DNA of 64,000 nt from Polaribacter sejongensis (GTDB lineage Bacteria > Bacteroidota > Bacteroidia > Flavobacteriales > Flavobacteriaceae). Position 1 is the stretch's first letter. Every line of letters begins with the position of its first letter. Position numbers and translations under genes: made by a program. Shown piece by piece: positions 49,845-61,564 of the stretch. Location of the stretch: NCBI RefSeq assembly GCF_038024065.1, contig NZ_CP150667.1, positions 1,116,001 through 1,180,000 on the forward strand, given 5' to 3'. The notes below the pieces were generated by a model. It was not told the origin of the DNA and did not search any database. It was given only the letters and a program-made list of their open reading frames with translations.

Positions 49845-50177
49845 ATGAAAATATTAAAAAAAGATACATATACACTTATTTCAAGTGATGAAAAGTCATT
49901 CTCTGAATTCTACAATTCTTTCTTAATTGAAGAAGAAAAAAGATCTAAAGAGCATATTATTATACAAATTTCAGACAACATTAACGCTTCAATAAAAGAT
50001 TTTTTACTATTTTTGAGAATAGCAGCTCAAAAAAAGGAAAATGGCACATCATTTGTATTAGTAAATTCTAGTATTAATATAGACGATTTTCCAGAAAACT
50101 TTAACATTACTCCTACTGTACAAGAAGCAATAGATGTAATAGAAATGGAAGCTATGGAAAGAGAACTAGGATTTTAA
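49845..50177 (+). CDS. Small conserved hypothetical protein upstream of rnz (STAS-like?)
   Basis: A 110-residue cytoplasmic protein (MKILKKDTYTLISSDEKSFSEFYNSFLIEEEKRSKEHIIIQIS...FVLVNSSINIDDFPENFNITPTVQEAIDVIEMEAMERELGF). The alternation of short strands (HIIIQIS; SFVLVNSS) and helices, ending with a helix after a TPTVQEAIDVIEMEAMERELGF tail, resembles a STAS/anti-anti-sigma fold, but I cannot claim the family. The ATG at 49845 is preferred over one at 49815. It comes just before the type IX domain gene and rnz. Confidence 0.65.
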   Translation: MKILKKDTYTLISSDEKSFSEFYNSFLIEEEKRSKEHIIIQISDNINASIKDFLLFLRIAAQKKENGTSFVLVNSSINIDDFPENFNITPTVQEAIDVIEMEAMERELGF

Positions 50178-50188
50178 ACAAGAAGCAA

Positions 50189-50509
50189 ATGGTAAAAAAA
50201 CTACTTTTTATTTTATTTTTATGTTACACTTCAATTGGTTTTTCTCAAGAAAACTCTATTGATGGTTTATCTGCTGCTCCAAATCCATTTACCAATTCTA
50301 CCAAAATTAGTTTTTCATCAGACGCTAACAAGACCATTTATTTTACGGTTAAAAATGTTCTAGGAAAAACAGTATATAGAAAAAGTATTCAGATTAAATC
50401 TGGTAAAAATAACATTCCTTTTTATAAAGATAATTTAGCTACAGGTATGTACATTTATAGTATTCAAGACAATAAAAGAACCATCTCTAAACGATTTGTG
50501 ATTAGATGA
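50189..50509 (+). CDS. Small exported protein consisting mainly of a type IX sorting (T9SS type A) domain
   Basis: A 106-residue protein: a signal peptide (MVKKLLFILFLCYTSIGFS-Q) followed directly by a C-terminal sorting domain, with LSAAPNPFTNSTKISF, a KTVYRK strand, and the end TGMYIYSIQDNKRTISKRFVIR. These are the T9SS type A motifs (PNP near the start, G-Y/I-Y near the middle, K-x-x-I/V-x at the end). Normally the domain is attached to a large cargo; here there are only about 10 residues between signal and domain. Its 3' end overlaps the rnz start by 4 bases (ATGA). Confidence 0.85.
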   Translation: MVKKLLFILFLCYTSIGFSQENSIDGLSAAPNPFTNSTKISFSSDANKTIYFTVKNVLGKTVYRKSIQIKSGKNNIPFYKDNLATGMYIYSIQDNKRTISKRFVIR

Positions 50510-51420
50510 GTATAGCACTAACTATTTTAGGATGCCATTCTGCAACTCCTAGAAAAAACGCTTTTCCTACTTCTCAATATTTAGAAATTAACAACAGTCA
50601 TTTTTTGATTGATTGTGGAGAAGGTACGCAGCGTCAAATGAGAAAATATAAAGTAGGTTTCTCTAAAATAAATCATATTTTTATTACGCATTTACATGGC
50701 GATCATTTTTATGGTTTAGTTGGATTATTAGCTACTTTCGGAATATTAAATAGAGAAAAAGAACTCCATATTTATGGACCAAAAGGTATTAAAGAAGTTA
50801 CTTTATTACAATTGAGAGTTTCTCAATCTCACGCAAAATATAAAATGATTTTTCATGAATTAACCTCAAAAGAAAGTGAGCTTATTTTTGAAGATGATAA
50901 AGTTTCTGTAACTACAATTCCTTTAAACCACAGAGTTTATACAAATGGTTATTTGTTTACAGAAAAGCAAAAACCAAGAAAATTAAACATGTTAAATATT
51001 AGCGGATATCCAGATATTGATAAAGCTGATTATTTAAATATAAAAGCAGGTAAAGATGTTGTTTTACCTTCTGGAGAAGTTGTTTCTAATTTAGAATTAA
51101 CAATTCCGGCAGACAAACCTTTAAGTTTTGCCTTTTGTAGCGATACTTGCTATAAACCAGACATTGTACCTATTATAAAAGATGTAGATCTATTATACCA
51201 CGAAGCTACTTTTTTAGCAGATAGAGAAGATTTGGCAAAAAAGACCAAACACGCAACAACAAAACAAGCTGCTGAAATAGCAAAACAAGCCAACGCTAAA
51301 CAATTAATAATTGGGCATTATTCTGGCAGATATAAAGATATTAACGTTTTTAGAGCGGAAGCACAAGAAATATTTAAACACACGCACTTAGCCGAACCTG
51401 GTAAAGTATTTAAAATATAA
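50506..51420 (+). CDS. rnz: Ribonuclease Z
   Basis: tRNA 3'-end endonuclease of the metallo-beta-lactamase family (304 residues). The zinc motif THLHGDHFYG (about residues 62-71) and late DTCYKPD and HYSGRYKD ligands are conserved. The ATG overlaps the stop of the sorting-domain gene by 4 bases, which suggests coupling, though the functions are unrelated (genome-context inference). The gene converges on the CoA-binding protein, with a long inverted repeat between. Confidence 0.95.
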   Translation: MSIALTILGCHSATPRKNAFPTSQYLEINNSHFLIDCGEGTQRQMRKYKVGFSKINHIFITHLHGDHFYGLVGLLATFGILNREKELHIYGPKGIKEVTLLQLRVSQSHAKYKMIFHELTSKESELIFEDDKVSVTTIPLNHRVYTNGYLFTEKQKPRKLNMLNISGYPDIDKADYLNIKAGKDVVLPSGEVVSNLELTIPADKPLSFAFCSDTCYKPDIVPIIKDVDLLYHEATFLADREDLAKKTKHATTKQAAEIAKQANAKQLIIGHYSGRYKDINVFRAEAQEIFKHTHLAEPGKVFKI

Positions 51421-51425
51421 TTAAT

Positions 51426-51511
51426 AAGTAAATTGAATTGGTTTTTCTAAATTTATTAGAAAATAAAATATTTTGAAAAGGGAAGTTTAACTTTACCAAT
51501 TCAATTTACTT
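51426..51511. repeat. 17-base perfect inverted repeat between convergent genes
   Basis: AAGTAAATTGAATTGGT at 51426-51442 is exactly complementary to 51495-51511. The 52-base interior contains a second hairpin (TTCTAA/TTAGAA, about 51445-51461). The right arm ends 2 bases from the CoA-binding protein's stop codon. It could serve as a two-way terminator, but no T tract is next to the outer stem, and the stem is longer than usual. Confidence 0.65.
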
Positions 51512-51512
51512 T

Positions 51513-51875
51513 TTAATATTGATTCATGCTCAGCATTACTAATGTACAAGCAACTTCTGTCTCAATAGAATTCTCTTCTAAAAGTTTTACAAATTCTCCA
51601 TTTTCAGACCCAGGATTAAAAATTACCCTTCTAGGTTTTAATCCAATTATATAGTTATAGTATTCTTCTTGATTTTTTGGATTTAGATACAAAGTAACCG
51701 TATCAATATTTTCAAACTCTTTTTTTTCGGTTTCAATGACAACACCTAAAACGGTTCCTTTTCTTATGCCTAAAGCAGCAACTGGTATTTCTTTATCTAC
51801 GAGTCTTTTTATAGCAATATTAGAATATTTGTTAGGATTTGTTGATGCGCCAAGAACTAATGTTACATTTTTCAT
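51513..51875 (-). CDS. CoA-binding domain protein
   Basis: A 120-residue Rossmann-like protein of the CoA_binding_2 family (YccU-like). The start MKNVTLVLGASTNPNKYSNIAIKRLVDKEIPVAALG carries the nucleotide-binding G-A-S-x-N-P-x-K-Y motif, and the end RVIFNPGSENGEFVKLLEENSIETEVACTLVMLSM is conserved. No catalytic domain is attached. Role unknown; it may be a CoA-sensing protein. Confidence 0.85.
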   Translation of the reverse strand: MKNVTLVLGASTNPNKYSNIAIKRLVDKEIPVAALGIRKGTVLGVVIETEKKEFENIDTVTLYLNPKNQEEYYNYIIGLKPRRVIFNPGSENGEFVKLLEENSIETEVACTLVMLSMNQY

Positions 51876-52155
51876 TCTGTTAATTTACGTTAAACAAATT
51901 TAATATCATAACAAATATAAACCAATCGATTAATAAAAGCTAGTAATATTAGAAATCCAATATACCTATTTAATTTCATTTTTTTAAAAATACAAAAACA
52001 GTAAATGAAATATTAATTAAAAAGAAATATAAAATAACTAGAGATCTCATTACTTATAATGAGGTTTTTATTTCACCTTAAAAAATACTTTCATATCAAA
52101 ATAAAAAGAGAAAGTTTCACTTTAATTAAGTAATCATTTTTAGCATCTTTGTAAC
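51876..52155. other. Intergenic region before the Crp-like gene, with hairpin
   Basis: No gene is visible in 280 AT-rich bases. A terminator-like hairpin, CTCATTA and TAATGAG at 52046-52063 followed by GTTTTTA, is oriented for a plus-strand transcript although no plus-strand gene lies just upstream. It could end a small RNA or act in the leader of the regulator at 52156. A near-match to the -7 box, CATCTTTG, lies at 52144-52151. Confidence 0.35.
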
Positions 52156-52731
52156 ATGTATCAATCTATAACAAATCATATCAATAATCATATTACTCCA
52201 ACAACTATTGATTTGCAATTGTTTAATGCCATTCTAACGGAAACCTCTATACCTAAAGGTCAGTTTTTACTATTACCAGGCGCCATTGTAAAACACGAAT
52301 ACTTTGTAATAAAGGGCTGTTTAAAAGCTTATTATATGGATGATAAGGGGAATAGACATATCATACAATTTGCTATAGAAAATTGGTGGGTAGGAGATTT
52401 TGATGCATTTTACAATCAAACACCTTCCATATTACATATAGAAGCTATAGAAGACTCTAAATTATTATCTATAAGCTATGACAATCTTCAAAAAATTTAT
52501 GATGAAGCGCCTATTTTTGAACGTTACTTTAGAATTTTAACCACAAAGGCATTCATCGCGCAGCGAAAAAGAATTTTATCTACATTAGAAAAAAATACCC
52601 AAGAACGTTATCTAGAATTTTGCTCCTCATACCCAAATATAGAAGATAGAGTACCTAATTACGACATTGCAAATTATTTAGGTGTTTCTCCAGAAAACTT
52701 AAGTCGCGTAAGGCGACAACTGAAAGGTTAA
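52156..52731 (+). CDS. Crp/Fnr family transcription regulator
   Basis: A 191-residue regulator: an N-terminal cyclic-nucleotide-binding beta-roll (FLLLPGAIVKHEYFVIKGCLKAYYMDDKGNRHIIQFAIENWWVGD) and a short C-terminal winged helix (ISSYPNI...VPNYDIANYLGVSPENLSRVRRQLKG). It lacks the Cys set of Fnr, so an oxygen sensor is unlikely, and the ligand is unknown. An Old Yellow Enzyme gene follows 87 bases downstream in the same direction with its own -7 box, a combination often seen for stress-responsive regulators; its target is probably that gene (inference). Confidence 0.85.
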   Translation: MYQSITNHINNHITPTTIDLQLFNAILTETSIPKGQFLLLPGAIVKHEYFVIKGCLKAYYMDDKGNRHIIQFAIENWWVGDFDAFYNQTPSILHIEAIEDSKLLSISYDNLQKIYDEAPIFERYFRILTTKAFIAQRKRILSTLEKNTQERYLEFCSSYPNIEDRVPNYDIANYLGVSPENLSRVRRQLKG

Positions 52732-52778
52732 ATCTTTCTTAATTGATCTAAGTCAATAATATTAGCTTTCTATTCCTG

Positions 52779-52786
52779 TAATTTTG
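52779..52786 (+). promoter_or_regulatory. Candidate -7 promoter box of the Old Yellow Enzyme gene
   Basis: TAATTTTG matches TAnnTTTG 33 bases before the ATG at 52819; I find no TTG at the usual upstream spacing, so a regulator may be needed for strong use. Confidence 0.45.
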
Positions 52787-52818
52787 TGTAGATTTAACAA
52801 TATAAAAGTCAACATTAA

Positions 52819-53913
52819 ATGAGCAAGCAACAATTATTAACTCCATATAATAAAAATATTAATTTAAAAAACAGGGTCGTAATGGCTCCCATGACTCGTA
52901 GTAGAGCAGATAACGAAGGTAATGTGCCTACTAACGAATTACATGGTTTGTATTACGAACAACGCGCATCTGCAGGTTTAATTATAACAGAAGGCGCACA
53001 AGTATCTAAAGATGCAGTTGGTTACATTTATACTGCAGGAATATATTCTGATGAACAGGTTGAAGGTTGGAAACAAGTAACCAAACGTGTACATGACAAA
53101 GGAGGAAAAATCTTTATTCAATTATGGCATGTTGGTAGAATATCACACCCAGATTTTCATAACGGAGAATTACCACTTTCTGCATCAGCAATAAACCCAA
53201 ATGCACAATCTTTTACGCCAGAAGGTTTTAAAGATACTGTTACACCAAAAGAAATGACGGTTGAAGATATTAAAACTACGGTTAACGATTTTAAAAATGC
53301 TGCTGCAAATGCCGTAAAAGCAGGTTTTGATGGCGTAGAAATTCACTCTTCTAACGGTTATTTATTTCATCAATTTTTTACGAGCTGTTCTAATACAAGA
53401 ACAGATAATTATGGTGGAAGTATTGAAAACAAAACGCGTTTCTTTTTTGAAGTTTTAGACGCAATGAAAGAAGTAATTCCTCAAGAAAAAATAGGTGTAC
53501 GTTTCAATCCTTCTCTAAACGGTTTGTTTGGCATCAATTTAGATGAAGAAACAATACCAACATTCGAGTACATAATTAAAAAACTAAACGATTACAATTT
53601 AGCATACGTTCATCTTTCAGAACCTTTTACAGATGTTTCTGATGTTCCTTTTGCAGTAACTGAAATAGCAAAACATTTCCGTCCGTTATATAATGGAACT
53701 CTAATGATTAACACTTCGTTTGATAAAGAAAAAGGAAATAAAATACTTGAAGATGGAGATGCAGATTTAGTTGCTTATGGGAAACCTTTTATTTCTAACC
53801 CAGATTTAGTAGAACGTTTTGAAAACAATTTAGAATTAACTGAGTGGGATCAAGATACTTTTTACAGCCAAGGAGCTAAAGGTTATACAGATTACCCAAA
53901 AGCTAGTAAATAA
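52819..53913 (+). CDS. Alkene reductase of the Old Yellow Enzyme family
   Basis: FMN-dependent NAD(P)H oxidoreductase of the OYE/NemA type (364 residues), reducing activated C=C bonds, nitro groups and similar electrophiles. The FMN and substrate motifs are present: VVMAPMTRSRAD at the N-terminus, IQLWHVGRISHP, VEIHSSNGYLFHQFF (the catalytic His and Asn pair) and the C-terminal VAYGKPFISNPDL. Preceded by a Crp-like regulator. Ends 30 bases before the large repeat array. Confidence 0.9.
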   Translation: MSKQQLLTPYNKNINLKNRVVMAPMTRSRADNEGNVPTNELHGLYYEQRASAGLIITEGAQVSKDAVGYIYTAGIYSDEQVEGWKQVTKRVHDKGGKIFIQLWHVGRISHPDFHNGELPLSASAINPNAQSFTPEGFKDTVTPKEMTVEDIKTTVNDFKNAAANAVKAGFDGVEIHSSNGYLFHQFFTSCSNTRTDNYGGSIENKTRFFFEVLDAMKEVIPQEKIGVRFNPSLNGLFGINLDEETIPTFEYIIKKLNDYNLAYVHLSEPFTDVSDVPFAVTEIAKHFRPLYNGTLMINTSFDKEKGNKILEDGDADLVAYGKPFISNPDLVERFENNLELTEWDQDTFYSQGAKGYTDYPKASK

Positions 53914-53944
53914 TTAGTTTTTAAATAGTGTTTTGGAAGTGTAA

Positions 53945-54640
53945 GGCAGTCTGAGTCTATTGAAGCCCATTTAGCTGCACTTCGACAAGCTCTGTGTGAC
54001 ATTTGGAGTTTTAATTGGGTTTCCATTTTAACTGGAAAATATTTTTGTTTAAAATCACATTTTTTACCAATCACTCAAAAAAACAATTTAGAAAACGAAT
54101 GTCAGTCAGAGCCTGTCGAAGACCATTTAGATGCACTTCGACAAGCTCAGTGTGACATTTAGAATTTTAATTGAGTTTACGTTTTAACTGGACAATATTT
54201 TAGTTTAAAATCACATTTTTCACCAATCATTCTAAAAGAACAATTTAGCAAACGAGTGTCAGTCTGAGCCTGTCGAAGACTATTTAACTTACACTTCGAC
54301 AAGCTCTGTGTGACATTTAGAGTTTTAATTGGCTTTAGTTTTAACTTGATAATACTTTAGTTTAAAATCACACTATTTACCAATCATTCTAAAAGAACAA
54401 TTTAACAAACAAATGTCAATCTGAGCTTGTCGAAGACCATTTGTGTGACATTTTGAGTTTTAATTGGATTTACGTTTTAACTGGACAATATACTAGTTTA
54501 AACTCTACTTTTTTCCAATCAATCTAAAAAAACAATTTAGAAAACAAATGTCAGTCTGAGCCTGTCGAAGACCATTTAACTGCACTTCGACAAGCTCTGT
54601 GTGACATATTGAATTTAAATTGAGTTTAAAAAAAATAAAA
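53945..54640. repeat. Left block of ~157-bp tandem hairpin repeats
   Basis: Five head-to-tail units start near 53945 (degraded), 54100, 54257, 54414 and 54549, with spacings of 157, 157 and 135 bases. A unit begins TGTCAGTCTGAGC-TGTCGAAG and, after about 14 bases, carries the partner arm CTTCGACAAGCTC and TGTGTGACA, so each unit can form an about 22-base stem. The rest is an AT-rich tail with a second, weaker dyad (ATTGG...CCAAT; TTTTAACT...AGTTTAAAA). The fourth unit has lost the right arm, and the fifth is cut at about 54630 next to the nuclease gene. Confidence 0.9.
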
Positions 54641-54675
54641 TATACTCACAAATTTTAATTCAAATTACAAAACAA

Positions 54676-54984
54676 CTATATTTTAGAATCTTTATTTTCT
54701 GAATAGTTTTTAGAAAACTTTACTAAATCACTCCAATTTTCATCAATCAAAGCTTTCTTTTTTCTGTGAGACCAGCCTTTAATTTTCTTTTCATATTGAA
54801 TTGCATCTCTCGAATCTGAACACTCTAAATACCATTTTAATTCAATTGGTAGCCTAGAAAAAGTATAGGAGTCTTTACTTTTCCCTGACTTATGTTCAAA
54901 CAATCTTCTTTCTAAATTATTTGTCATTCCTGTGTAATAAGAATTATCAGAGCATAGTAAAATGTAGACATAATAAATTCTCAT
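54676..54984 (-). CDS. GIY-YIG nuclease-family protein
   Basis: A single-domain GIY-YIG protein (102 residues). YVYILL (residues 5-10) and YYTGMT (16-21) form the GIY-YIG core; Arg26/Arg27, the AIQYEKKIKGW block with Glu65 and the downstream RKKKALIDENW are the catalytic arm. It is alone, minus strand, and lies within the ~157-bp repeat array: repeat units abut both sides. The unit to its left is broken close to the stop codon and a partial unit restarts 17 bases upstream of the start. Similar UPF0213/YhbQ-type proteins act on DNA in repair; here the surroundings suggest a repeat-linked role (inference). No -7 box is evident. Confidence 0.9.
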   Translation of the reverse strand: MRIYYVYILLCSDNSYYTGMTNNLERRLFEHKSGKSKDSYTFSRLPIELKWYLECSDSRDAIQYEKKIKGWSHRKKKALIDENWSDLVKFSKNYSENKDSKI

Positions 54985-55001
54985 AATTTAGTTTTTGGAT
55001 A

Positions 55002-55613
55002 ATGCACTTCGACAAGCTCAGTGTGACATTTAGAGTTTGAATTGGGTTTACGTTTTAACTTGAAAGTTTTTAGTTTAAACTCACATTTTAACCAATCATT
55101 ACAAAAAAACAATTTAACAATCGCATGTCAGTCTGAGCTTGTCGAAGACTATTTTTTACACTTCGACAAGCTCTGTGTGACATTTAGAGTTTTAATTGGG
55201 TTACGTTTTAACTTGACAATATTTTTGTTTAAAATCACATTTTTAACCAATCATTCAAAAAAAACAATTTAACAAACAAATGTCAGTCTGAGCTTGTCGA
55301 AGACCATTTTACTGCACTTCGACAAGCTCTGTGTGACATTTAGAGTTTTAATTGGGTTTACGTTTTAACTTGACTAAATCTTAGTTTAAAATCACCTTTT
55401 TCGCCAATCATTCTAAAAGAACAATTTAGAAAACGAATGTCAGTCTGAGCCTGTCGAAGACCATTTTAGGTTACACTTCGACAAGCTCTGTGTGATATTT
55501 AGAATTTAAATTGGGTTTCCATTTTAACTTGACTATATTTTAGTTTAAAATCACATTTTTCACCAATCATTCCAAAAGAACAATTTAACAAACGAATGTC
55601 AACCCTCTTCTTT
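55002..55613. repeat. Right block of ~157-bp tandem hairpin repeats
   Basis: A partial unit starts at about 55002 (at the right arm, CACTTCGACAAGCTCAGTGTG) and is followed by full units at 55126, 55281 and 55438, with spacings of 155, 157 and 159 bases; a last TGTCA at 55597 starts a unit that is cut off before fabH. The sequence matches the left block closely and in the same orientation, so the nuclease gene interrupts a single array. Two units (starting near 53945 and 55126) contain TATTTTTG, the -7 consensus, where others have TATTTTAG. Confidence 0.9.
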
Positions 55614-56621
55614 TTACCATCTAATAATTACACTTCCCCAAGTAAATCCACTTCCAAAGGCAGCTAAAACAACTAAATCGTTGTCTTTTATTTTTCCTTC
55701 TTCCCAAGCTTCGGTTAAAGCAATAATTACAGAAGCTGCTGTTGTGTTTCCGTATTTTTGAATATTATTAAAAACCCTATCATCAGACAACTTAAACTTC
55801 TTTTGTATAAATTGTGCGATACGTAAATTTGCTTGATGCGGAATTAACATATCAATGTCTTCTTTCTCTAATTTGTTTGTTGCTAAACCTTCTACAATTG
55901 CTTCAGAAAAACGTGTTATGGCGTGCTTAAAAACAAACTGACCATTCATATAAGGGAAATAAGAAACATCATCCGGGTCATTTCTTTCTATAATTCCTGG
56001 AACCCATTTTCCGGTAGACGGTCCTTCTAAAACCAATTCTTTTGCATGTTTACCTTCCGAATGTAAATGAGAAGATAAAATTCCTTTTCCTGCTTCTTCA
56101 CTTCTAGAAAGTACAGCAGCTCCTGCTCCATCTCCAAAAATCACCGAAATATTTCTTCCTCTTGTAGATTTGTCTAATCCTCCTGAATGATTTTCTGCTC
56201 CAATAACCAAAACATTTTTATACATTCCTGTTTTAATAAATTGGTCTGCAACAGACATTGCATAAATAAAACCAGAACATTGGTTACGTACATCTAAAGC
56301 CGGAATTGTTCCCATATCTAACATTTCTTGTACTTGAACTCCACCTCCAGGAAAATACATATCCGGACTTAAAGTTGCAAATACAATAAAATCGATATCA
56401 TCTTTTGTTAACCCAGCTCTTTCAATTGCAATTCTAGATGCTTTTGCGCCCATAACTGCCGTTGTGTCTTCTGTTTTTGGGTCTATCCAACGTCTTTCCT
56501 TAATTCCTGTTCGTTCTTGAATCCATTCATCTGAAGTTTCCATGAACTCTTTTAAGTCGTTATTGGTAACAACATTCTCTGGAACATAATACCCAAGTCC
56601 CGTTATTTTTGAATTATACAT
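55614..56621 (-). CDS. fabH: 3-oxoacyl-ACP synthase III (ketoacyl-ACP synthase III)
   Basis: Condenses acetyl-CoA (or another acyl-CoA) with malonyl-ACP to start fatty-acid synthesis. The catalytic triad is visible: Cys in RNQCSGFIYA, His in LIPHQANLRI and Asn in KYGNTTAASV; 335 residues is normal. The repeat array ends directly at its stop codon (the last repeat fragment reaches about 55600). It is divergent from htpG. Confidence 0.93.
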   Translation of the reverse strand: MYNSKITGLGYYVPENVVTNNDLKEFMETSDEWIQERTGIKERRWIDPKTEDTTAVMGAKASRIAIERAGLTKDDIDFIVFATLSPDMYFPGGGVQVQEMLDMGTIPALDVRNQCSGFIYAMSVADQFIKTGMYKNVLVIGAENHSGGLDKSTRGRNISVIFGDGAGAAVLSRSEEAGKGILSSHLHSEGKHAKELVLEGPSTGKWVPGIIERNDPDDVSYFPYMNGQFVFKHAITRFSEAIVEGLATNKLEKEDIDMLIPHQANLRIAQFIQKKFKLSDDRVFNNIQKYGNTTAASVIIALTEAWEEGKIKDNDLVVLAAFGSGFTWGSVIIRW

Positions 56622-56801
56622 AATTATATATTGTTTTTTTGATTTTTTGCAAACTCTTAATACGTAAAAGTACTAATTTATAAAAATAAACGAAAGAGTT
56701 GACATTAAAATAATATTTATGTCATCTTGTCATAAAATTCTCTTTGGTATTTTTTTTGAATAACCTTTATCAGAATAATAAATTAATAAAATAAACATAA
56801 A
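56622..56801. other. fabH-htpG divergent gap with dyad
   Basis: A 180-base divergent promoter gap with no gene. A perfect dyad TGACAT (56700-56705) and ATGTCA (56719-56724) is separated by 13 bases, followed by TTGTCA at 56728. It lies about 75-100 bases before the htpG ATG and might be an operator. No HrcA CIRCE element is present. Confidence 0.4.
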
Positions 56802-58706
56802 ATGGCAAAAGGAAATATTAATGTATCAGTAGAAAATATTTTTCCACTAATTAAAAAATTCTTGTATTCAGATCATGAAATCTTTTTACGTGAATTAATT
56901 TCTAACGGAACAGATGCAACTTCTAAACTAAAGCATTTAATTGCTATTGGTGAAGCTAAAACTGAATTAGGTGATGCTAAAATTGAAATCAGCATAGATA
57001 AAGATGCTAAGACAATTACTATTAAAGATCAAGGTTTAGGAATGACTGCAGATGAAGTTGAAAAATACATCAACCAAATTGCGTTTTCTGGAGCTGAAGA
57101 ATTTTTAGATAAATATAAAGACAACGAAGCAGGAATTATTGGTCATTTCGGACTAGGTTTTTACTCTGCTTTTATGGTTGCAGAAAAAGTAGAATTAATT
57201 ACAAAGTCTTTTAAAGACGAACCTGCTGCACATTGGACTTGTGATGGTTCTCCAGAGTTTACATTAGTAGAAAGTGATAAAGCAGACAGAGGTACAGAAA
57301 TTATTTTGCACGTTGCAGAAGATTCTTTAGACTTTTTAGAAGAAAGTAAAATTGGTGGTTTATTAAACAAATACAACCGTTTTAACCAAGTGCCAATTAA
57401 ATTTGGAACAGAAGAAATTAACGATCCTGAGTTTACACCTGCAACTACAACAGATGCTGAAGGTAAAGAAACTACAGAGCCTCATAAAAAAATTACAGTT
57501 GATAATATTATCAACAACACAGAACCTGCTTGGACAAAAGCACCTGCAGATTTAAGTGATGAAGATTATGAAAACTTCTACAGAGAATTGTATCCAATGC
57601 AATTTGAAGAGTCTTTATTCCACATTCATTTAAATGTTGATTATCCTTTTAACTTAACAGGTATTTTATTTTTCCCTAAGTTATCTACATCAATGGATAT
57701 GCAAAAGGACAAAATTCAATTATACCAAAACCAAGTTTTTGTTACAGATAATGTAGAAGGAATTGTTCCTGATTTCTTACAAATGTTAAAAGGTGTAATT
57801 GATTCTCCAGACATTCCTTTAAACGTTTCTCGTTCTGGTTTACAGGCAGACGGAGCTGTAAAGAAAATTTCTGGCTACATTACTAAAAAAGTAGCAGACA
57901 AATTATCTTCTATCTTCAAAAAAGACAGAGCTGATTTTGAAACAAAATGGAACGATATTAAAGTAATTATTGAGTACGGAATGTTGTCTGAAGATAAATT
58001 CTTTGACAAAGCGAAGAAATTTGCATTGTACCCAACAGTTGCAGATACGTATTTTACATTTGATGAATTAATTGAAAAAACAAAAGATTCTCAGACTGAT
58101 AAAGAAGGAAATCACGTTCTTTTATATACATCAAACAAAGAAGCACAACACAGTTATATCCAGGATGCAACAGCTAAAGGATATGAAGTATTGTTATTAG
58201 ATTCTCCTATTATTTCTCATTTAATGCAGAAATTAGAAGGTGGTGATGCTAAAGTAAAATTCTCTAGAGTTGATGCAGATCACGTAGATAATTTAATTAA
58301 GAAAGACGATAACGTAATTTCTAAATTATCTGAAGATGAAATTGCAACTTTAAAACCAATTATTGAAGGTGCAGTAAATTCTAAAACATATACAGTTCAA
58401 TTAGAAGCGATGGATTCTGCTTCTTCTCCGTTTATGATTACAGTGCCAGAATTTATGCGTAGAATGAAAGAAATGCAAGCTTCTGGTGGTGGTGGAATGA
58501 TGGGAATGGGTAATTTCCCAGACATGTATAACTTAGTGGTAAATACAAACAGCCCATTAGTTGCTGATATTTTAAATAATAAAGATGAAGCGGCTCAGAA
58601 AGGTTTAATTTCTCAAGCTTTTGATTTAGCTAAATTATCTCAAAACCTTTTACATGGTGAAGAGTTAACAAACTTCATAAAACGTTCTTACGCGTTAATT
58701 AAGTAA
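56802..58706 (+). CDS. htpG: Molecular chaperone HtpG (Hsp90 family)
   Basis: Cytosolic Hsp90-family ATP-dependent chaperone. GHKL ATPase motifs: DHEIFLRELISNGTDATSKL (the ATP lid Asn/Asp region), DQGLGMTADEV and GHFGLGFYSAFMVA. The middle and C-terminal domains follow with LNVSRSGLQAD and a final helical domain; 634 residues is the usual length. There is a Gly-rich loop (ASGGGGMMGMGNF) near residue 565. The terminator and a REP-like repeat follow. Confidence 0.96.
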   Translation: MAKGNINVSVENIFPLIKKFLYSDHEIFLRELISNGTDATSKLKHLIAIGEAKTELGDAKIEISIDKDAKTITIKDQGLGMTADEVEKYINQIAFSGAEEFLDKYKDNEAGIIGHFGLGFYSAFMVAEKVELITKSFKDEPAAHWTCDGSPEFTLVESDKADRGTEIILHVAEDSLDFLEESKIGGLLNKYNRFNQVPIKFGTEEINDPEFTPATTTDAEGKETTEPHKKITVDNIINNTEPAWTKAPADLSDEDYENFYRELYPMQFEESLFHIHLNVDYPFNLTGILFFPKLSTSMDMQKDKIQLYQNQVFVTDNVEGIVPDFLQMLKGVIDSPDIPLNVSRSGLQADGAVKKISGYITKKVADKLSSIFKKDRADFETKWNDIKVIIEYGMLSEDKFFDKAKKFALYPTVADTYFTFDELIEKTKDSQTDKEGNHVLLYTSNKEAQHSYIQDATAKGYEVLLLDSPIISHLMQKLEGGDAKVKFSRVDADHVDNLIKKDDNVISKLSEDEIATLKPIIEGAVNSKTYTVQLEAMDSASSPFMITVPEFMRRMKEMQASGGGGMMGMGNFPDMYNLVVNTNSPLVADILNNKDEAAQKGLISQAFDLAKLSQNLLHGEELTNFIKRSYALIK

Positions 58707-58711
58707 TAAAA

Positions 58712-58788
58712 CGTCATTACGAATGAGGAACGAATGAAGTAATCTGTTTCTTTAAATTTACAGATTGCTTCATACCTCGCAATGACTT
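58712..58788. repeat. GTCATT-type inverted repeat after htpG
   Basis: CGTCATTACGA...GAAGTAATCTG on the left and CAGATTGCTTCATACCTCGC...AATGAC on the right are imperfectly complementary arms around an AT loop. The motif resembles the GTCATTGCGAGG/GAAGCAATC repeat found in many bacterial genomes, with an insertion in the left arm. It begins 5 bases after the htpG stop and precedes the true terminator. Confidence 0.7.
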
Positions 58789-58795
58789 ATAATAC

Positions 58796-58828
58796 AAAAA
58801 CCTCTCTGTGTATTCAGGGAGGTTTTTT
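58796..58828 (+). terminator. Intrinsic terminator of htpG
   Basis: AAAAACCTCTCTG pairs with CAGGGAGGTTTTT (one wobble) and is followed by T residues. Confidence 0.85.
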
Positions 58829-58963
58829 ATTTGTCCTTTTTTTATCAGAAAATATAAAGCAAAACCTCTCATTCCTTTTTATAACACTAAAATATCAAAC
58901 AGTATTTTTTCTTTTGATAATTTGAATGTTTTTGTATTTTAGGAATCAGAATTAATATGTACA

Positions 58964-59302
58964 ATGAAATTAATACACACAAATACATTACCAGAAATAG
59001 GCACAAGTCACGATGAAAATGTCAAGAAAAAAGTATTTATAGAAAGAGGAGAAATTCCTCAATTAATGATGTTTGGTTCTGCAACTTTTACACCCGGACA
59101 AACTGTAGAAACGCATAGACATGATACCATGTACGAAGTTTTTTATATACAATCTGGTAAAGCAGAGTTTATTGTGAATGACAAAAAAATGATTGTAGTT
59201 CCTGGAGATTGTATCACTATTGAACAAGGAGAATTCCACTCCATGAATAATCCTTTTTTAGAAAATGTAACATGGGTTTATTTTGGAATTGCAACAGACT
59301 AG
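58964..59302 (+). CDS. Cupin-domain protein
   Basis: A single cupin barrel (112 residues). Motif 1 is THRHDTMYEVFYIQSGKAEFIV (two His, one Glu region as metal ligands) and motif 2 is PGDCITIEQGEFHSMNNPF with a third His. Such proteins bind a metal and serve as small enzymes or sensors; no partner or fusion hints at the substrate. A weak terminator follows. Confidence 0.85.
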   Translation: MKLIHTNTLPEIGTSHDENVKKKVFIERGEIPQLMMFGSATFTPGQTVETHRHDTMYEVFYIQSGKAEFIVNDKKMIVVPGDCITIEQGEFHSMNNPFLENVTWVYFGIATD

Positions 59303-59456
59303 CAGACTAAATTTAAAGATTCCTTTTAGCTTTTTAAAATACGTTTTCGTAACCATCATAAAGCTGCTTTAAAATTCCACTTTGTAAATTCAAAGTCATT
59401 TTTTCTGGTTAAAACTGTAACTAAACTTAACTTTTTTTACTGCTGCTAAAAACCAC

Positions 59457-59488
59457 AAACCTCACTATTCATTCAGAGAGGTTTTTTG
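59457..59488 (+). terminator. Weak terminator-like hairpin after the cupin gene
   Basis: AAACCTC and GAGGTTT pair across a 14-base loop and run into TTTTG. It lies about 155 bases after the cupin stop, so it is only a possible end for that transcript. The remaining 59303-59587 gap holds no gene. Confidence 0.5.
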
Positions 59489-59587
59489 TTTGATTTTGTC
59501 AAGAAAAAAGGGTAAATTCGTTCGACTTCTGATAAATGAATTGAAATTTATTTTATCAAAATAGTTGTGCACAATTAAACAAAACAC

Positions 59588-61564
59588 ATGAATAAACCTG
59601 AAGAACTTATAATTTCAAATTTAATTTTACCGATTGTGAAAGACATTCTTTTGCCGAAAATTCAAACTGTTTTCAGTAAATTTGCTATAACGAATACAAC
59701 ACCAAATAAGGTTGAAGAAAATTTTGATAGTTATCTTACTCAACGCTATGAAAAATTTCTAACAATTGACACGCTCGTATTTCCTAATAAACAAACTCTA
59801 TTAGAAATACTATATCAGCCTTTAACATTAAGCTGTCAGGATGGAAATAAGAACACTCAAATAGAAATAAAGATAAATAATTACCCTGAGAACTTAATTC
59901 CTGAATACATCAGAGTAATTATAGAAGATACCGCAGGCATGGGTAAATCCACGATTACAAAAAAATTATTTCAATCAATAATTCTAGAAAAAAAAGGTAT
60001 ACCTATTCTCATTGAATTAAGTCAAATAAATAATAAAAACAATATACTTAAAGAAATTCAAAATCAACTTTCTCCAATCGGAAAAAAACTGAGTCAAGAT
60101 TTTATATTAAAATTAATTAATGAAGGTGATTTTATCTTTTTATTCGACGGTTTTGATGAAATAGCTCTGGATGATAGAGAATATGTAATTAGAGAATTAC
60201 ATAAATTCATTGAAAAAGCCAATTACAATTTCTTTCTTATAACATCAAGACCTGAGGACTCTTTAGCTTCTTTTGGTGATTTTCAAAAATTTAACGTAAA
60301 ACCATTAGAAAAAGGAGAAGCCTACAGTTTATTAAATAAGTATGACTCGTATAGTTATCGTCCAATTTCGAAAAACTTAATTAAACAATTAAATGATACT
60401 CCTGATGATTCACTTCAAGAATATTTAAGTAACCCATTTCTAGTTTCCTTATTGTATAAGTCTTATGAATTCAAAAAAGATATACCTATTAAAAAGAGTC
60501 AATTTTACCAGCAAGTTTATGATGCTCTTTTTGAAACACATGACCTATCGAAAGAAGGTTATTTAAAAAGAGATAAATATAGCAATTTACATATTGATGA
60601 TTTTGAAAGAGTATTAAGACATATCGGTTATTTCACCTCAATTGAAAACAAAGTTGAATATGATAAAAACACCATAATTAAATTTATTGATAAAGCAAAA
60701 AAACATATCAGTGACCTTAAATTTAGATCAAGCGATTTTTTAAAAGATTTAATTAAAACTGTTCCAATTTTCAAAAAAGAAGGAAATTATTATAAATGGG
60801 GGCATAAATCTCTTCAAGATTATTTCGCTGCAAAATTCATTTGGATTGACTCGAAAGAATCTCAACAAGCAATTCTTGAAAAAATGTATTTCGATTCTAG
60901 AATAAAACGGTTTTATAACCTTTTAACTATTTATTATGAATTAGACCCTAACGGTTTTGATAACACCATTTTAAAATGGGCATTAACAGATTTTCAAACT
61001 TTTGCTTCTACAAATTATGAAGATTGGGACAAAAAAGAAAAACGTGTAAAAACAAGAATTGAAAATCACTATAACAAATCATGCGTCATAGCGATTACAA
61101 AAAAAGAAGATTTTGAAACTATACGTTCTTCTAGTGACAAAAAAAATAGAGATGTACATAATTATTATAGAAAAAAAGTAAAAACTAAATATTCAACAAA
61201 TAATTCAAATCATACAACTTTTAATTATTTTGAAAAACCTATGGTTGTTTCATTATCTTATATTGGAGTTAATTCTGCAAAAAACACTTTAATAGATTTG
61301 ATTAGTGTAACTCATCCAAAATTAGCTGAATACAAAGGTCATAAAATTCATTTAAAAGAACTAACATCATCTCTTCAAGAAGATTCTGTTTATCAATTAG
61401 ACGATAAAAAATCAAATATATTAAATCAAGAAAACGTATTCGAAACCACTAACGACCTAATAATGAGTGATTTTTGTTTCAACTTTGACGAAGCTTTAAA
61501 TAAGCTGAAAGAACTTAATAAAACAGATTCTAAAAAAGTAAAGAATGAACTTTTAGATTGGTAA
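59588..61564 (+). CDS. NACHT-domain NTPase, putative antiphage or immunity-type protein
   Basis: A 658-residue P-loop NTPase of the NACHT/STAND group. Walker A is GMGKST (residues 117-122), Walker B FLFDGFDE (184-191) and sensor ITSRP (218-222). The N-terminal ~100 residues are a helical leader of unknown fold. After the NACHT (to about residue 420) comes a helical region and a C-terminal domain of unclear type (about 500-640), with no leucine-rich or TPR repeats visible. In bacteria such proteins often serve in phage defence (bNACHT group). It stands alone between a cupin and a DUF3124 gene and is followed by a cassette-like tail. Confidence 0.85.
   Translation: MNKPEELIISNLILPIVKDILLPKIQTVFSKFAITNTTPNKVEENFDSYLTQRYEKFLTIDTLVFPNKQTLLEILYQPLTLSCQDGNKNTQIEIKINNYPENLIPEYIRVIIEDTAGMGKSTITKKLFQSIILEKKGIPILIELSQINNKNNILKEIQNQLSPIGKKLSQDFILKLINEGDFIFLFDGFDEIALDDREYVIRELHKFIEKANYNFFLITSRPEDSLASFGDFQKFNVKPLEKGEAYSLLNKYDSYSYRPISKNLIKQLNDTPDDSLQEYLSNPFLVSLLYKSYEFKKDIPIKKSQFYQQVYDALFETHDLSKEGYLKRDKYSNLHIDDFERVLRHIGYFTSIENKVEYDKNTIIKFIDKAKKHISDLKFRSSDFLKDLIKTVPIFKKEGNYYKWGHKSLQDYFAAKFIWIDSKESQQAILEKMYFDSRIKRFYNLLTIYYELDPNGFDNTILKWALTDFQTFASTNYEDWDKKEKRVKTRIENHYNKSCVIAITKKEDFETIRSSSDKKNRDVHNYYRKKVKTKYSTNNSNHTTFNYFEKPMVVSLSYIGVNSAKNTLIDLISVTHPKLAEYKGHKIHLKELTSSLQEDSVYQLDDKKSNILNQENVFETTNDLIMSDFCFNFDEALNKLKELNKTDSKKVKNELLDW

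Follow-up and report, generated by a model that had tools for sequence, protein, structure and literature searches.

What is a gene for a small GIY-YIG protein doing inside a tandem array of hairpin repeats, and does the protein act on the repeats around it? The question is raised by a stretch of 64,000 nucleotides from Polaribacter sejongensis (the window, meaning here the whole of that stretch), in which a tandem hairpin-repeat array at 53945-55603 is interrupted by one GIY-YIG gene. Few repeats in bacterial genomes are as well known as the REP-like ones, and RAYT enzymes serve only one superfamily of them. In the accessible parts of their paper, Di Nocera, De Gregorio and Rocco (2013, PMC3733652) sorted REPs into the GTAG and CGTC superfamilies, with TGTC variants noted, placed Neisseria dRS3 and Rickettsia RPE-4/6 among the CGTC REPs, recorded these in five phyla including Bacteroidetes, and reported that CGTC REPs seem to have no dedicated transposase and that no transposase flanked by CGTC repeats was found.

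We consider it probable that the array is a REP-like cluster akin to the CGTC/TGTC superfamily, and that the GIY-YIG protein is its cognate enzyme, as RAYT is for the GTAG REPs. This hypothesis, which can be tested, would answer an explicit open question, namely that of the enzyme of the CGTC REPs.

The array, its half-units and the GIY-YIG protein

According to Tandem Repeats Finder, the period is 157 at 53947-54628 and 159 at 55005-55601, with the GIY-YIG gene, the only gene inside the array, between them; this bears out the earlier note's description of a tandem ~157-bp hairpin array around a single GIY-YIG gene. Copy spacings obtained by repeat search are 154-159, with a single 135 and a gene-sized gap. 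The exact core GAGCNTGTCGA defines 15 half-units between 53977 and 55497, 7 on the plus and 8 on the minus strand, and decayed half-unit remnants were seen by eye at about 53945 and 55597. Each half-unit consists of a TGTC tag (14 of 15 copies; TATC in the other), one base, and a covarying 4-bp stem that encloses the fixed loop. Half-units mostly form inverted pairs, 27-30 bp core to core, and the array unit is a head-on pair followed by a spacer of ~100 bp. The gene occupies the position expected for one spacer and one forward half-unit, and the half-unit at 55004..55028 (minus strand) has no plus-strand partner, the gene standing in that place. The whole is flanked by two convergent genes, 52819-53913 and 55614-56621, which from their translations encode an old-yellow-enzyme-like reductase and a FabH-like synthase, respectively. 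The features are as follows.

53945..55603, no strand: whole array; its ~157-bp tandem units are broken by the GIY-YIG gene
53923..55610, no strand: segment missing in the close relative G231
53977..54001, minus: half-unit TGTC-A-CACA-GAGCTTGTCGA-AGTG
54100..54124, plus: half-unit TGTC-A-GTCA-GAGCCTGTCGA-AGAC
54133..54157, minus: half-unit TGTC-A-CACT-GAGCTTGTCGA-AGTG
54257..54281, plus: half-unit TGTC-A-GTCT-GAGCCTGTCGA-AGAC
54291..54315, minus: half-unit TGTC-A-CACA-GAGCTTGTCGA-AGTG
54414..54438, plus: half-unit TGTC-A-ATCT-GAGCTTGTCGA-AGAC, minus-strand partner lost
54549..54573, plus: half-unit TGTC-A-GTCT-GAGCCTGTCGA-AGAC
54582..54606, minus: half-unit adjoining the 3' side of the GIY-YIG gene
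54676..54984, minus: GIY-YIG nuclease gene, 102 aa, UPF0213-like (PF01541, E 2.2e-17)
55004..55028, minus: half-unit TGTC-A-CACT-GAGCTTGTCGA-AGTG, 19 bp upstream of the gene's start codon
55126..55150, plus: half-unit TGTC-A-GTCT-GAGCTTGTCGA-AGAC
55158..55182, minus: half-unit
55281..55305, plus: half-unit
55314..55338, minus: half-unit
55438..55462, plus: half-unit
55473..55497, minus: half-unit, tag decayed to TATC

Among 89 distinct contexts of the fixed core, drawn from the fetched loci, stem positions 3 and 4 are Watson-Crick paired in 74 and 81, against 25+-4 and 27+-4 after shuffling; four pair types occur at each position, and TGTC stands one base ahead of the stem in 64 of these 89 A-type contexts. 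Across phyla, the corresponding counts for 123 contexts from 80 loci of a broad collection are 108 and 103, against 48+-5 and 40+-5. Related sequences can exceed shuffles in such a test, yet several stem types are found within the P. sejongensis genome. By our reading, the tag is followed by A, 4-5 Watson-Crick pairs, GA/GA, one G-C and a 5-nt loop, and a count of 8 pairs in the stem requires that two G.A mismatches be allowed.

The two halves of the window dimer differ in stem, GTCT/AGAC as against CACA or CACT/AGTG. The 22-base stem described in the earlier note does pair, but it joins two different half-units and, as their stems are unlike, is mismatched exactly where the small hairpins pair. 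In DNA folding of one window dimer, the long stem is favored over two small hairpins (-13.6 kcal/mol, z -4.4).

The array was rightly held in the earlier note not to be a CRISPR: the stretches that separate the hairpins are repeats too, with 60-90% identity, on which ground we rejected that candidate, and no cas-like ORF was seen by eye among the translations from 50000-60000 of the window. A known RNA family was likewise set aside, as an Rfam scan of the array units gave no family at gathering score. Elsewhere in the window, the frame at 59588-61564 (plus strand) encodes a 658-aa protein with a P-loop-like stretch, DTAGMGKSTITKKLF, and by eye the look of a NACHT-type NTPase; such NTPases are known from bacterial NLR-like defence.

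The window protein matches the UPF0213/GIY-YIG domain proteins of PDB entries 1ZG2 (BH0048) and 1YWL (EF2693) with an E of 2.4e-12 and belongs to the same sequence family; we know of no repeat partner for either. Among 84 aligned relatives, Y7 is conserved in 83, Y17 in 84, R27 in 83, H31 in 84 and E65 in 84. We take these to be the catalytic residues, from the roles of their counterparts in GIY-YIG restriction enzymes, and their retention makes it likely that the window protein is an active nuclease.

Gene and hairpin in the genome, family and genus

All four small GIY-YIG genes of the P. sejongensis genome have hairpins on both sides, of differing kinds. By eye, the window gene lies among type A, the genes at 749 kb and 1864 kb among C-type hairpins that differ in stem and tag, and the gene at 724 kb among a fourth type. 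A reading in which repeats occur at only one of the four genes was rejected, since the scan behind it covered a single loop class. The TGTCATTCCGAAGAATTGAGGAATC repeats around the 724-kb gene form yet another type of hairpin, in which the GAG..TCGA order is lacking.

The family sample comprised 199 genomes, from which 90 loci among the matches listed were used; four of these (L091, L141, L143, L144) have no ORF of >=70 aa. Of 86 small GIY-YIG genes (among the matches listed, identical flank pairs removed), 81 have a hairpin of the form stem4-GAG-N-TCGA-stem4' no more than 300 bp away, compared with 25 of 179 control ORFs from the same loci and 1.2% of shuffled flanks; the shuffles, here and in the test outside the family, preserve single-base composition only. 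The descriptor and the loop classes were drawn up after the flanks had been viewed, so that independent support matters. It comes from descriptor-free matching of flank to flank, in which 66 of 89 genes (among the matches listed, some present twice through overlapping loci) have a repeat scoring >=16, as against 7 of 208 controls. These statistics treat related loci as independent.

The A core itself is specific to the nearest relatives: among the matches listed, it is found near the gene in seven of the nine nearest family sequences, our own included, and within 1.3 kb in none of the 21 next-nearest, one of which has it at 1.4 kb. The remaining family hairpins are C (with a GAGCGNAGTCGA loop), B (GAGTG, an inner stem and TGTATCGA) and A with a long insert, and A, B and C share one scheme of tag, stem, GAG...TCGA and stem. 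A simple classifier assigned a loop class to 83 of 85 family genes (among the matches listed) and to 39 of 172 control ORFs. On a tree of these 85 proteins, from which identical proteins and lengths outside 75-200 were left out, the loop class changes 10 times, compared with 38.3 times when shuffled, and none of 200 shuffles was as low. One clade of 35 genes is entirely C and another of 28 entirely B, whereas the window's clade of 10 has six A, three A with insert and one B, and a fourth clade of 10 rows is mixed; each of the three large clades is thus found among its own loop class. The tree has few columns and many weak forks, and neither the C clade (98/74) nor the B clade (88/60) is strongly supported.

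Paralogues provide a further comparison. In the 12 genomes that carry genes of different clades, every gene has the hairpin class of its own clade (for example, A and B in G157, and B, C and C in both G168 and G138), which speaks against an origin of the pattern in genome composition or in intergenic spots where both tend to insert. For this test, clades B and C were read off the printed tree with the label as a guide, and two of 14 genomes, each holding an unplaced gene, were left aside.

In the genus, an A-type gene, delimited at >=61% identity by a cut chosen after viewing the list, is present in six of 97 genomes, and exact A cores flank each of these genes on either side. Carriers hold 4-57 cores per genome and the 91 non-carriers 1.3 on average; 31 of these 91 hold some cores, up to 21. 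A separate case in the family sample is G177, in which the A motif occurs 40 times, often as inverted pairs at a distance of 42 bp; its one GIY-YIG match among those listed is weak, so that many repeats go with no close partner gene.

The REP/RAYT-like pairing that the earlier note envisaged, with a GIY-YIG enzyme in the place of RAYT, thus holds as an association, given the hairpins at 81 of 86 homologues and a loop class that tracks the tree, and so does its remark that Bacteroidota GIY-YIG genes end near TGAGC.TGTCGAAG motifs. The note would have called the link chance if copies were scattered with no tie to GIY-YIG genes, or if homologues generally lacked repeats: the copies are indeed scattered, in the manner of REPs, but repeats do accompany the homologues. 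The link between GIY-YIG gene and hairpin is not coincidental.

An association could also arise if the hairpins were older chromosomal repeats that had spread by other means, and small GIY-YIG genes were selfish elements that use them as landing sites, by cutting and inserting there, without spreading them. Homing endonucleases are known to include GIY-YIG domains, the window gene stands in place of a spacer and one plus-strand half-unit, and many genomes hold repeats but no close homologue of the gene, all of which such a homing-type parasite would explain. Clade-specific loop classes and the larger number of repeats in carriers better suit an enzyme that maintains its own repeat, and we regard this main rival as unlikely.

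Placement of the repeats and differences among relatives

In the relative G231, whose flanking regions are 94.9% and 96.5% identical to those of the window, 116 dissimilar bp lie between the same convergent genes in place of the window's 1,688 (53923-55610). Examined for an intact target site, G231 was found to be without gene and array together; there is no A core in 10 kb around the site and no A-type gene among the G231 matches, and no target-site signature was observed for the array units. A site at 475 kb spans ~1,870 bp with 16 cores in P. sejongensis and 227 bp with one core, in the matched left part, in G231, so that an array has grown or shrunk in tandem since the two diverged. Four congeners encode GIY-YIG proteins 81-86% identical to that of the window elsewhere, three of them at one shared place and the fourth at another. 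Close relatives therefore differ both in array size and in the presence of the array with its nuclease gene, differences for which gain and loss may be equally good accounts.

Throughout the family the gene is patchy, with a match in 116 of 199 genomes; it is multi-copy, sits at different sites among congeners and is duplicated in tandem in places. Two copies lie ~1 kb apart at one locus (L087, genome G013) and ~0.5 kb apart at another (L140, G108). This distribution is not what would be expected of a host repair nuclease that trims cruciforms or hairpins and lies near them for no mobile reason; moreover, nothing requires a repair enzyme to have its substrate on both flanks or to correspond to it in loop class. 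Such a caretaker role would fit the stable folding of the dimer (z -4.4) and the structure specificity of SLX1-like GIY-YIG enzymes, but we consider it very improbable.

Genome-wide, the placement of the cores is REP-like. The P. sejongensis genome contains 47 exact TGAGCNTGTCGAAG sites and 57 GAGCNTGTCGAAG sites, with arrays near 475.6, 1170, 1261, 1825 and 2796 kb as well as single units, and none of the 57 cores in the retrieved genome stretches falls within an ORF of >=100 aa. Genes around the repeats are convergent in nine of 16 stretches and divergent in one. A-type units near 1825 kb are interleaved, as seen by eye, with a different inverted repeat whose arms resemble GCGAGCGT...ACGCTCGT.

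Intergenic units, often between convergent genes, and one half-unit 19 bp ahead of the GIY-YIG start codon are what one might find if the repeats were RNA or regulatory elements, such as terminators or attenuators of the nuclease mRNA, involving no chemistry between nuclease and repeat. We give this still less credence, in view of the occurrence of units, in arrays or singly, at a great distance from any GIY-YIG gene, the pairing of hairpin class with the protein tree and the lack of an Rfam family at gathering score. Mobilization by a RAYT/Y1 transposase, with an incidental GIY-YIG link, is to us the least probable reading: the two Y1_Tnp genes of the genome, at 705 kb and 2635 kb, are away from every listed motif site, and no transposase flanked by CGTC repeats was found in the work cited above, within its accessible parts (PMC3733652).

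Other phyla, a proposed replicator and known systems

The system extends further than the earlier note supposed, into Actinobacteria, Chloroflexi and Proteobacteria. The core is present in many phyla, with at least 119 stretches found in the broad collection. At 80 motif-centred loci examined among these, no small GIY-YIG ORF was found in <=8 kb, and a broader GIY-YIG profile still gave 0 of 80; as a positive control, the profile recovered 66 of 70 known PF01541 loci, the four missed having UvrC-sized frames. Together with the 31 of 91 genus non-carriers that hold copies, this indicates that most copies lie far from the gene or outlive it. A reading of the 0 of 80 as failure of the link outside Bacteroidota was rejected when the gene-centred test reversed it: among 30 gene-centred loci in 32 genomes, chosen for holding the core and so not a neutral sample, eight have a GIY-YIG domain with cores to either side.

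L337, L340, L341, L353, L354, L356, L359: A-type cores on both sides (Deltaproteobacteria, Eremiobacterota, Dehalococcoidia, Desertihabitans, Plantibacter, Sphingomonas gilva, Microbacterium)
L344: C-type cores on both sides (Proteobacteria)

Every one of the 198 genomes in the phylum sample has a PF01541 match, UvrC-like ones included. Outside the family, flank-to-flank repeats accompany 37 of 65 small GIY-YIG genes (the best PF01541 matches rather than a random draw, after three of 70 loci with short flanks were dropped and two large ORFs set apart) and two of 62 control windows; the strict descriptor is found at 22 of the 65 and at two control windows. The figure of 37 overstates REPs, since some flank repeats, among 23 loci inspected by eye, are not REP-like: at L394 (G417) the repeat is the tandem gene itself, in three copies 317 bp apart; those at L400 and L393 are terminator-like; and the gene at L386 (G471) stands between copies of a direct repeat that resembles a tRNA 3' end, an arrangement that brings to mind an attachment-site duplication.

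A YGTC tag, for which a chance match is twice as likely as for a fully specified one, occurs at 45 of 86 family genes and 28 of 65 outside genes, compared with 12 of 81 and 6 of 59 distal windows and 14 of 86 and 4 of 65 reversed flanks. It is present on both sides in 17 of 86 and 16 of 65, respectively, whereas three other tags occur 2-7 times and never on both sides. A scan for GTAG, which also required A after the tag, gave 3 of 86 (distal, 5 of 81). A few outside loci fit CGTC REPs, compared by the description of these. In Sphingomonas sp. Root241 (G488), copies of CGTCATCCCCGCGAAAGCGGGGAC at 1450434 and 1450782 surround a GIY-YIG domain at 1450521-1450739, and the pattern has 191 matches in the genome on both strands with up to two mismatches, against 0 for the control; in a pattern search of eight genomes, G491 had no match.

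The mechanism that we propose for the cognate enzyme is as follows. With the hairpin in single-stranded or cruciform form, the GIY-YIG protein would recognize its tag and GAG..TCGA loop and would cut there. As we know of no strand-joining activity in GIY-YIG enzymes, insertion would need host repair. Repair of the cut from other copies could produce tandem amplification and conversion of units, and could carry the gene with its units to new intergenic sites. This host-repair route is the weakest step. The pair may thus be a small replicator, selfish or in part domesticated, that would be mobilized by a hydrolytic GIY-YIG nuclease and not by an HUH transposase.

A broader proposal, to which we assign an even chance, is that across bacteria the CGTC/TGTC REP superfamily as a whole, including dRS3 and RPE, has its missing partners in small UPF0213-like GIY-YIG nucleases. 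They would then form a second replicator class parallel to REP/RAYT, spread by nuclease cuts and host repair, with co-evolving loop-class recognition. The ~100-residue protein, with three matched enzyme-hairpin classes, provides a concrete enzyme candidate for CGTC REPs. Such a role would also give a function to a widespread family whose usual annotation is GIY-YIG domain or UPF0213 protein.

The association of enzyme and repeat is real, broad and, as far as a search of the open literature reaches, unreported. 'GIY' does not occur in the accessible text of Di Nocera et al. (PMC3733652), nor in the parts available of a 2025 RepRanger paper and a 2018 HuH phylogenomics paper, and two further papers holding both GIY-YIG and repeat terms draw no link between them in the portions consulted. 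No report of a link between GIY-YIG and REP hairpins was found in open-access PMC literature, judged partly by titles and abstracts. The earlier note's phrase, an undescribed repeat-nuclease system, therefore stands for the link, but the repeats themselves connect to the described CGTC REP superfamily.

Among known systems, the CGTC REPs come closest. According to the accessible parts of PMC3733652, they have in common with the window units an unpaired tag at one end (CGTC, TGTC or CCTC in the superfamily, TGTC in the window), apparently a short hairpin starting with A-T, intergenic location and occurrence in several phyla, as well as inverted dimers, which in some CGTC families have unlike halves. 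They differ in stem and loop (8-9 bp and 4-5 nt, compared with 4-5 bp and an 11-nt GAG..TCGA loop in the window), in that clusters are rare among them whereas the window units form an array, and in being reported with no enzyme, for which we propose the GIY-YIG candidate.

GIY-YIG homing endonucleases share with the window protein the nuclease fold and a gene near its presumed target; in the window, however, there is no intron and, in 102 residues, no extra DNA-binding domain, and the target would be a multi-copy hairpin. The GTAG REP/REPIN systems with RAYT (TnpA-REP) likewise combine a tagged imperfect hairpin, an enzyme gene flanked by its own repeat class and many dispersed non-autonomous copies, but their tag is GTAG and their enzyme an HUH/Y1 transposase, where the pair proposed here has a TGTC/CGTC tag and a hydrolytic GIY-YIG protein (PF01541).
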